From: Solibacillus sp. FSL R7-0682
GTDB taxonomy: Bacteria; Bacillota; Bacilli; Bacillales_A; Planococcaceae
NCBI RefSeq assembly: GCF_038005985.1
Contig: NZ_JBBOUI010000001.1
Span: 2,934,001-2,998,000, forward strand
Direction of reading: 5' to 3'
Length of the DNA stretch: 64,000 nucleotides
The stretch's first letter is position 1; each line of letters opens with the position of its first letter. The position numbers and the translations under genes are program-made. Shown here piece after piece: positions 51,645-53,461 of the stretch. The notes beneath the pieces are model-generated. The model had not been told where the DNA came from. It worked only from the letters and a program-made list of their open reading frames with translations, and did no database searches.

Positions 51645-52073
51645 TTACTGCAGAACATAGGAGGTAATATACACTTGTGTTACTTCACCATTTTGCATTA
51701 ATTCATTCACTTGCGACTTAATAGCATTTTGGAATGTAACTTTACCTTGTTTACCTTCTAAAGATTCCTTTTCCATTTCAGATAATTCTTGAATGACAAT
51801 ATTCTTCACTTGGAAATCACGCTTCAATAGCTCTTCTCCAGCATCTTTATCTGAACCTTGAACTTTAAGTGAAATGCGTACAAAACTTCCATCTGCTAAA
51901 TTCGTCGTAATCTCTGGAATGTCTACAGAGGATTCAACAATTTCATCAATTGTTGGTTCAGTTGCTGCTGAACCTTTGTCAAGCTGTGTTAATAACACCA
52001 CAACAATAACACCAATTAAAGTAATCGTCACTAACATAATGAGCATAATTGTTAATAGTTTATTGTTCTTCAT
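51645..52073 (-). CDS. fliL: Flagellar basal body protein FliL
   Basis: Stator-associated protein with one N-terminal membrane helix (about 6-28) and an extracellular domain (about 40-142). The start is ATG at 52073, six nt after GAGGTG; a GTG three codons earlier overlaps that site. The protein is 142 aa. NLADGSFVRISLKVQGSD and FQNAIKSQVNELM are family segments. It overlaps the flbD end. Confidence 0.92.
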   Translation of the reverse strand: MKNNKLLTIMLIMLVTITLIGVIVVVLLTQLDKGSAATEPTIDEIVESSVDIPEITTNLADGSFVRISLKVQGSDKDAGEELLKRDFQVKNIVIQELSEMEKESLEGKQGKVTFQNAIKSQVNELMQNGEVTQVYITSYVLQ

Positions 52074-52284
52074 CTTCTTCACCTCTTAGATGCGGGTTTG
52101 ATAGTGCTTGTATATGTTGATAAAAGGTTGTTACCTTTTGTCGCACCTGATTTTCAGTTTCTAAAACAATGAATTTACGCCCAGTCGTTAGCGTAATCGT
52201 TGTGTCTGGAAAAGCTTCGACTGTTTCTATGTATAGAGCGTTTAAAGTAAATGCTTTGCCATTTAGGCGCGTTACTTCAATCAT
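52060..52284 (-). CDS. flbD: Flagellar protein FlbD (SwrD type)
   Basis: A 74-aa protein of the FlbD family (SwrD in B. subtilis, affecting motor power). The family start MIEVTRLNGKAFTLNALYIETVE in parts (MIEVTRLNGK) fixes the start codon at 52284. No ribosome site lies at normal distance; instead GGGAGG is 38 nt upstream and is separated from the ATG by a GC-rich hairpin (52292-52319). It overlaps fliL by 14 bp. This unusual initiation region is described in the findings. Confidence 0.9.
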   Translation of the reverse strand: MIEVTRLNGKAFTLNALYIETVEAFPDTTITLTTGRKFIVLETENQVRQKVTTFYQHIQALSNPHLRGEEDEEQ

Positions 52285-52290
52285 TGAAAT

Positions 52291-52330
52291 GGGGCCGGAC
52301 CTACGTAGAGAGCCGGCCCGACCCTCCCTT
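52291..52330 (-). promoter_or_regulatory. Hairpin between Shine-Dalgarno and start codon of flbD
   Basis: On the minus strand GGGAGG (52328-52323) is followed by a 7-bp GC stem GGGCCGG/CCGGCCC (52319-52313 with 52298-52292, 14-nt loop) and then ATTTCA before the ATG. If the stem is folded, the sequence distance from the site to the ATG is about 10 nt; unfolded it is 38 nt. The GC content is far above its surroundings. Confidence 0.65.
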
Positions 52331-52363
52331 ACAATGAATTATTATGATAATAAATAGGTTAAC

Positions 52364-53353
52364 CTATCGTTTTAAGTTTACAAGTTCTTGTAATATCTCA
52401 TCTGAAGTAGTAATAATACGAGAGTTCGCTTGGAAACCACGTTGTGCAACAATCATCTCCGTAAATTCTTCAGAAAGGTCTACGTTTGACATTTCAAGGA
52501 AACTAGAGTTAACTGATCCGATACCTGCTTGAGTCCCCACTTGTACTAAAGGATCTCCAGAGTTCGCAGACATTTGGAAGTAGTTAGATCCAGTTTTTTC
52601 TAAACCAGAAGCGTTTGGAAATTTAGCTAATAAAGCTTGCCCTGCGAATTGTAACTTACCATTAACGTCAACATAGTAAACAGAACCATCTTGTGAAATA
52701 GACATGGATTGAGCATTCGTTGGAATTCTTAGTGGCCCCGTTGTACCAGCTGCTGGTGTAATTTGTCCATCTACATATAGATTGTCAGTTCCCTGTGCTA
52801 AATCTGCACGATCGTCATCTGACATACTCTCCGCATCCGGATCTACTTCCGCATATAAATTTTCGTTAGCAACACCTACTAAATATTTTCCATCTCCATT
52901 TACTAGGTACCCGTATTTATCCATATACATATTTCCTGCTCGAGTATATTGAATATTAGTGAAGCCATCTGCTAACAATGGATTTTGCGTTAAATCTTCC
53001 ATATCATCAGGAGTTGGTGCTGCATCAGCAGCAGAATCTGCTACCATAAAGAAACCATCTCCAGAGATAGCTAAGTCAAGTGTACGCCCTGTTGATTGCA
53101 TTGAACCCGGGTTGTGAACTGTATCAATCGCTGCAAGTTGAGAACCTAATCCTACTTGAATGGCATTGACACCACCACGTGTTGCTGAAGGAGCAGATGC
53201 CCCTGCTTGTGTTTGTGAAATTAAATCTTTAAAAATTGTACGTTCCTTTTTAAAACCATACGTATTAACATTAGAAATGTTATTACCAATAACGTCTAAC
53301 TTTGTCTGGAAATTTTTTAAACCTGAAATACCTGAATACATTGAACGTAACAT
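52364..53353 (-). CDS. flgE: Flagellar hook protein FlgE
   Basis: Hook building block with the shared rod/hook fold. The ATG at 53353 (MLRSMYSGISGLKNFQTKLD) has a GGGAGA site; a seven-codon upstream frame has none. The protein is 329 aa, longer than the roughly 264 aa of B. subtilis because of the central region (about 120-200; many Asp/Ala/Pro residues). N-terminal NNISNVNTYGFK and C-terminal SNVDLSEEFTEMIVAQRGFQ in parts define the family. It precedes flbD by 79 bp. Confidence 0.93.
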   Translation of the reverse strand: MLRSMYSGISGLKNFQTKLDVIGNNISNVNTYGFKKERTIFKDLISQTQAGASAPSATRGGVNAIQVGLGSQLAAIDTVHNPGSMQSTGRTLDLAISGDGFFMVADSAADAAPTPDDMEDLTQNPLLADGFTNIQYTRAGNMYMDKYGYLVNGDGKYLVGVANENLYAEVDPDAESMSDDDRADLAQGTDNLYVDGQITPAAGTTGPLRIPTNAQSMSISQDGSVYYVDVNGKLQFAGQALLAKFPNASGLEKTGSNYFQMSANSGDPLVQVGTQAGIGSVNSSFLEMSNVDLSEEFTEMIVAQRGFQANSRIITTSDEILQELVNLKR

Positions 53354-53461
53354 AGTATGCCGTTCTCCCTTCAATTTTCAAAATTCACGAATTATTCGTG
53401 GTGTTAATAGCTGCGTCAATCAGTCAGCAGCTAAAGGCTTCCTTACCTATGAAGGTCCAGC

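Follow-up and report, generated by a model that had tools for sequence, protein, structure and literature searches.

A putative hairpin-bridged ribosome binding site at the start of flbD (swrD) in Solibacillus sp. FSL R7-0682 and its relatives

Comparison of related genomes and predicted RNA folding together indicate that the start of flbD in Solibacillus sp. FSL R7-0682 is very likely a split ribosome binding site that is bridged by a hairpin, of the type described for bacteriophage T4 genes 25 and 38. Structure-bridged initiation had been put forward in a sequence-only reading of this DNA. It is favoured by the conservation of the arrangement and by a near-constant distance between Shine-Dalgarno sequence (SD) and start after folding, despite the varying length of the hairpin; in addition, long insertions within the unit are confined to the loop, and the two genomes that have lost the hairpin have a linear distance that is still usable. 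In the mechanism that we propose the hairpin (52319-52292) would remain folded as the 30S subunit pairs with the SD (52328-52323). The folded hairpin would jut out of the path from SD to start, reducing the effective distance to about 10 nt, and ribosomes would initiate without melting it.

Anatomy of the flgE-flbD junction

All coordinates refer to the window, i.e. the whole 64-kb stretch of DNA that was analysed. The flbD gene (swrD/ylzI family) is a minus-strand ORF of 74 aa (52060..52284; Pfam FlbD, E 1.3e-25) starting at the ATG at 52284-52282. The N-terminus of its product, MIEVTRLNGK, is conserved among FlbD relatives, which supports the start that had been assigned on this ground. Its upstream neighbour is flgE (52364..53374, minus strand), whose stop codon (52366-52364) is located 79 nt ahead of the flbD start. 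Read 5' to 3' on the minus strand, the junction consists of the flgE stop, an AU-rich stretch, AAGGGAGG, GUC, the hairpin GGGCCGG-CUCUCUACGUAGGU-CCGGCCC, the 7-nt spacer CAUUUCA (52285..52291, minus strand), which does not contain an SD, and the AUG (52284-52282). In agreement with the claim that no SD directly precedes flbD, the best pairing with the 16S tail at 3-14 nt is -3.4 kcal/mol, versus -13.0 kcal/mol at 38 nt. The distal SD GGGAGG (52323..52328, minus strand; core GGAGG at 52327-52323), which has the start 38 nt downstream, had been described exactly to the base, and so had the 7-bp GC stem GGGCCGG/CCGGCCC (52319-52313 and 52298-52292) with its 14-nt loop between SD and start. This stem, which we name register A of the putative bridging hairpin (52292..52319, minus strand), leaves 3 + 7 = 10 nt when folded, so the predicted linear spacing of about 10 nt is recovered by counting. 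As a control for the window, an ordinary SD was found for 58 of 67 ORFs of at least 120 aa, at some start within the first 40 codons; the remaining nine are all on the plus strand.

Two further features of the junction were considered. On the minus strand, the sequence UUCAUUG upstream of the SD (52331-52338) could pair with the start region CAAUGA (52280-52285). An outer helix UCAUUG/CAAUGA that closes the start codon was rejected as a general feature: UCAUUG is present at just 22 of the 97 bridged sites of the family to which the strain belongs (hereafter own family), and pairing at p <= 0.05 was obtained for 21/97 of these sites and for 1/37 outside the family. We also rejected the possibility that the distal SD serves an upstream ORF, as a start codon 4-12 nt past the SD core occurs at 19 of 134 bridged sites and is absent here.

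Distribution and distances among relatives

In a first survey, 61 genomes were searched with the FlbD protein and flbD was found in 51; the first 30 loci read displayed without exception (30/30) an SD followed by a hairpin and a start without an adjoining SD. Larger samples were analysed at the levels of order, class and phylum, together with a set of named genomes; one single classification rule was applied across the order, named and class samples, and families and genera are given here under working labels (f1, g8 and so on). The order sample contained flbD in 133 of 150 genomes, all under one family (f1), and 118 of these sites were classified as bridged, 14 as conventional and 1 as other. 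The named set, which consists of the 80 closest of 578 relatives found and thus leans to near relatives, contained 77 bridged sites, 2 conventional ones and 1 other. An ordinary SD is the majority state in the class sample, in which flbD was present in 144 of 200 genomes from 32 families: 93 of the 144 sites were conventional, 35 bridged and 1 other, and 15 belonged to family f16 (see below). Bridged sites were found in 12 of the 32 families (f1, f8, f14, f19, f29, f32, f33, f37, f38, f40, f41 and f44). Named carriers are Solibacillus, Lysinibacillus, Ureibacillus, Sporosarcina, Kurthia, Viridibacillus, Psychrobacillus, Jeotgalibacillus, Cytobacillus, Rossellomorea, Lederbergia, Heyndrickxia, Domibacillus and a strain named Bacillus subtilis, in which the gene is swrD. 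In the phylum sample flbD was detected in 97 of 149 genomes, and among the 30 best-scoring loci, which were read, 28 were conventional; the other two, flagged by the rule, were L386, for which the start had been set wrongly in the analysis, and L392, which is GC-rich and fits poorly, and neither was accepted as bridged.

The 14 conventional genomes of the order sample comprise 11 of genus g8, two of g2, and G010 (L018), which was scored conventional owing to its loop sequence, yet has the same hairpin. Similarly, loop insertions are the reason why G103 (L314) and L056 were scored as other. Relatives having a normal site and no stem, whose existence the sequence-only reading had named as a ground for refutation, are thus real: they occur in other families and, within the own family, in genus g2 and in part of g8. 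They show that the hairpin can be lost, and they do not break the bridging pattern.

Family f16 displays a different organization. Its flbD start overlaps or adjoins the flgE end (CTGATG or CGATGA) and there is no SD at normal distance (loci L038, L258, L266, L270-L277, L280, L281, L283 and L284), which looks like translational coupling. Six of its sites had been flagged as bridged by the rule, their true SD lying further up within flgE, and the family was excluded from the distance figures. No flbD match was obtained for 17 of the 150 order genomes, including all seven sampled genomes of genus g4; these are perhaps lineages without flagella.

The 285 loci yielded 242 unique upstream regions, of which 92 contain an ordinary SD, 14 belong to f16 and 136 remain. 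An SD-hairpin-start arrangement could be fitted to 134 of these 136 sites. The two misses are L265 (f27), whose SD is located further up and gave no fit, and L056, which has a very long loop. The fit is not proof by itself, since the rule itself requires a hairpin energy of -7 kcal/mol or lower and a remaining distance of 3-18 nt; yet only two sites failed. At the 134 unique sites the total SD-start distance is 36.9 ± 5.4 nt (range 23-64), and removal of the hairpin leaves 9.8 ± 1.8 nt (3-16), with 8-10 nt at 106 of them; hairpin length and total distance are strongly correlated (r = 0.94). Outside the own family (37 sites) the total is 39.1 ± 8.4 nt and the folded distance 9.7 ± 2.6 nt. The 92 conventional sites have an SD-start distance of 7.5 ± 2.1 nt, which is shorter than the folded distance of 9.8 nt at bridged sites. 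When 125 representatives of the 134 bridged sites were compared with dinucleotide shuffles, a hairpin with an energy of -10 kcal/mol or lower and a remaining distance of 7-13 nt was present at 115 of the 125 observed sites and in 683 of 7500 shuffled sequences, and the fold z was below -2 for 110/125. An ordinary SD was detected in the same loci at all 47 flgE starts found (47/47) and at one of the 134 flbD starts.

Natural insertions and losses are informative in this respect. Ureibacillus manganicus (L056) has 177 nt between the arms, so that the SD-start distance of 201 nt becomes 10 nt when the arms are paired, and in G103 (L314), which has 56 nt between the arms, the distance drops from 77 to 9 nt on folding. 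Thus, both long insertions that fall inside the hairpin unit are located in the loop. In a non-systematic look at the sites read, neither the SD-stem nor the stem-start interval showed a long insertion. At L053, L057, L060, L086 and L105, long repeat-like insertions occupy the flgE-flbD gap upstream of the SD. Within genus g8, G134 and G132 display the SD-hairpin-start arrangement, with an expected folded distance of 5 + 7 = 12 nt for G134 (counted by eye), and G068 and G121 have no hairpin at the aligned place and a linear SD-start spacing of 14 and 13 nt, respectively. These losses suggest that a genome can do without the hairpin as long as the SD-start distance stays right.

Alternative registers of the hairpin

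The transcribed strand of the junction has a better fold than expected by chance (z -2.86; equalled by 3 of 200 shuffles). Besides register A, the hairpin can adopt register B (52292..52324, minus strand), in which 52324-52315 pairs with 52301-52292 and two G of the SD core are taken in. Folded alone, register B is predicted to be more stable (-20.1 kcal/mol) than the bare 7-bp stem of register A (-13.7 kcal/mol), or than register A with extra loop pairs (-16.0 kcal/mol). The predicted fold extends into the SD in the own family, including Solibacillus sp. FSL R7-0682. Because the fold reaches the SD and register B exceeds register A in predicted stability, the resting RNA of this family may be closed in part, and a ribosome may need to shift the register in order to bind. 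Such a shift is a possible control point, and it forms the main complication of the simple bridging reading. Competition between the two registers would lower or tune FlbD synthesis in the own family. It is plausible that the FlbD level depends on RNA folding.

For the 134 bridged sites, making the SD core and the start accessible is predicted to cost a median of 5.8 kcal/mol (0.2-13.6), and the predicted SD pairing energy exceeds this cost at every site (134/134). Unfolding of the whole SD-start interval is predicted to require a further 18.4 kcal/mol (median), and the hairpin is retained in 128 of the 134 SD-free folds. The median SD-freeing cost is 7.6 kcal/mol in the own family and 3.0 kcal/mol elsewhere.

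Compensatory stem changes, for which the sequence-only reading had recommended a search among relatives, are present; they are few. In an alignment of 30 sequences, double changes occur at two pairs of register A, a level reached by 12 of 500 shuffles, and at three pairs of register B, which none of 500 shuffles reached; 6 of 29 sequences lack pairing at column 14-41 of register B. In the Kurthia-like locus L025, the 3' arm has changed at column 40 and the partner positions in both registers (columns 20 and 15) have changed accordingly, because the 5' side carries two similar tandem units. In a pairwise test, equally long hairpins with 1-6 differences were compared, with partners slid by 1-3 places as controls. 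Double changes kept pairing in 31 cells and broke it in 10, and the slid controls kept 0-3; the 31 cells derive from 16 hairpin pairs, nine of which share L020, and represent perhaps six events. When single changes were included, pairing was kept in a fraction of 0.60, which is no better than some slid controls (0.33-0.75). The covariation hence gives modest support for the stem, and it is the constant folded distance that carries the case.

The existence of register B raises the possibility that the hairpin mainly hides the SD and keeps FlbD low, in a way similar to the leader of sigG. The predicted stability of register B, its double changes and the SD-freeing cost in the own family all point in this direction. 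However, families other than the own one keep the hairpin and the folded distance although their SD is freed at little cost, and the unpaired column 14-41 also argues against a general role of register B; moreover, an SD-occluding damper leaves the missing proximal SD and the constant folded distance unexplained. We regard it as improbable as the main function, and it may act on top of bridging. A related, rather unlikely elaboration of bridging is a two-state switch, in which, in the own family, register B would cover part of the SD and register A would free it at the right distance. A flagellar signal, either a protein or translation of the upstream hook gene, would select between them and would thereby couple the synthesis of FlbD/SwrD, and with it motor power, to the assembly of the hook.

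Other roles of the hairpin and known systems

Bridging was weighed against three other explanations. According to one, the hairpin serves as the binding site of a protein that obstructs the ribosome, a use to which thrS puts a hairpin inside its ribosome site in the available parts of PMC3858243 and PMC3936740. Stem and loop sequences at flbD vary so widely that no conserved protein site is apparent, and FlbD itself has no significant match to a known fold or to CsrA. Its predicted model contains five strands and a long helix (mean pLDDT 88.5); comparison with solved structures gave no fold match at E <= 0.001 (best 0.2) and a sequence search of the PDB gave no relative (best E 0.48). FlbD as a CsrA-like RNA binder was rejected, given an hhalign probability of 1.7% over 14 columns and the lack of a fold match. 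An operator of this kind is very unlikely. A paper on SwrD was reportedly published by Hall et al. in 2018.

Alternatively, the hairpin could be a weak terminator or a stabiliser of the 3' end of the flgE message, with ribosomes coming from flgE translating flbD through coupling, sliding or re-initiation. In other families, a hairpin is indeed often found ahead of a normal SD: z is -2 or lower at 39 of 85 conventional class sites, including all of those in f7, f18 and f22, and the same holds for 18 of the 28 conventional sites of the phylum sample. Strong flgE-flbD hairpins in this position are exemplified by L042, L050, L048, L371 and L375. In addition, at least 4 U are present among the 8 nt after the stem at 63 of the 134 bridged sites. 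The other 71 sites have no U-rich tail, though. The stem studied here is followed by CAUUUCA; a terminator scan found none at the flbD stem, using a search that admits loops of 3-8 nt only (the loop here is 14 nt). Coupling is unlikely because the flgE stop, where found, is located 48-280 nt before the start in bridged loci, and neither sliding nor coupling predicts the constant folded distance. We therefore give a terminator or stabiliser, in place of bridging, a very low probability; a role at the RNA level may exist alongside bridging. The junction hairpin is probably older, the SD having come to lie 5' of it in one lineage; its older role may have lain in protecting the flgE message or in terminating it partially.

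A chance-inserted mini-repeat that became tolerated, as the sequence-only reading had also considered, is extremely unlikely: it is in line with the hairpin being a GC-rich island within AT-rich DNA and with the repeat-like insertions in the flgE-flbD gap of relatives, but the search for further copies that had been recommended detected no other strong copy in this genome, and the hairpin occupies the orthologous position in many genera while its stem sequence turns over. In this search, a covariance model built from 30 relatives scored 71 bits at the flbD site and 21.5 bits (E 0.5) at the next match in the genome. Within the 64-kb window the hairpin sequence matches at one place, the flbD site, when up to 3 mismatches are allowed (none expected by chance), and Rfam gave no match up to E 5 within 52000-52700.

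The closest counterparts of a hairpin-bridged start are T4 genes 38 and 25, in which, according to the text available of PMC3014915, a hairpin between SD and start cuts the distance from 22 to 5 nt and from 27 to 11 nt, respectively, and mutations that destabilise the hairpin reduce translation. The same text cites the primary work of Nivinskas and Malys and describes the gene 25 arrangement as confined to close T-even phages. The likeness to flbD is that the SD is too distant and that the intervening hairpin would restore a functional distance, 10 nt at flbD, and by its anatomy the flbD site would be a split site of the T4 type. Unlike the phage genes as presented there, flbD is a cellular gene in a flagellar operon, its arrangement is found in 12 families of the class sample, and its stems, insertions and losses change freely. 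Mutational proof is a feature of the T4 genes, whereas the flbD site is known from sequence comparison and predicted folding. The ribosome site of E. coli thrS is likewise interrupted by a hairpin that, in the parts available of PMC3858243 and PMC3936740, is accommodated folded by the 30S subunit. That hairpin, a binding site of ThrRS, is located upstream of the SD, between the SD and a U-rich 30S contact, whereas the flbD hairpin lies between SD and start. The B. subtilis sigG leader, as described in the available part of PMC5942855, resembles flbD in that a ribosome site in Bacilli carries a conserved hairpin; the sigG hairpin blocks the SD by pairing it with bases further upstream and, unlike the flbD hairpin, does not bridge SD and start.

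Among the papers listed by searches of the open-licence PMC literature, none was on the swrD/ylzI leader or on a cellular SD-hairpin-start site. Hairpin-bridged starts are described in the part of the literature available to us for two T4 genes, and flbD would add a cellular, widely conserved case, at which natural insertions and losses behave as bridging predicts. As swrD of a strain named B. subtilis is included, reporter tests are feasible in the laboratory. If bridging is true, start prediction that relies on the linear distance to the SD overlooks a conserved class of sites, and the natural series of hairpins, from 14 to about 190 nt, would gauge what the 30S subunit tolerates between SD and start. 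As judged from its distribution, the arrangement at flbD looks old and widespread in one bacterial lineage.
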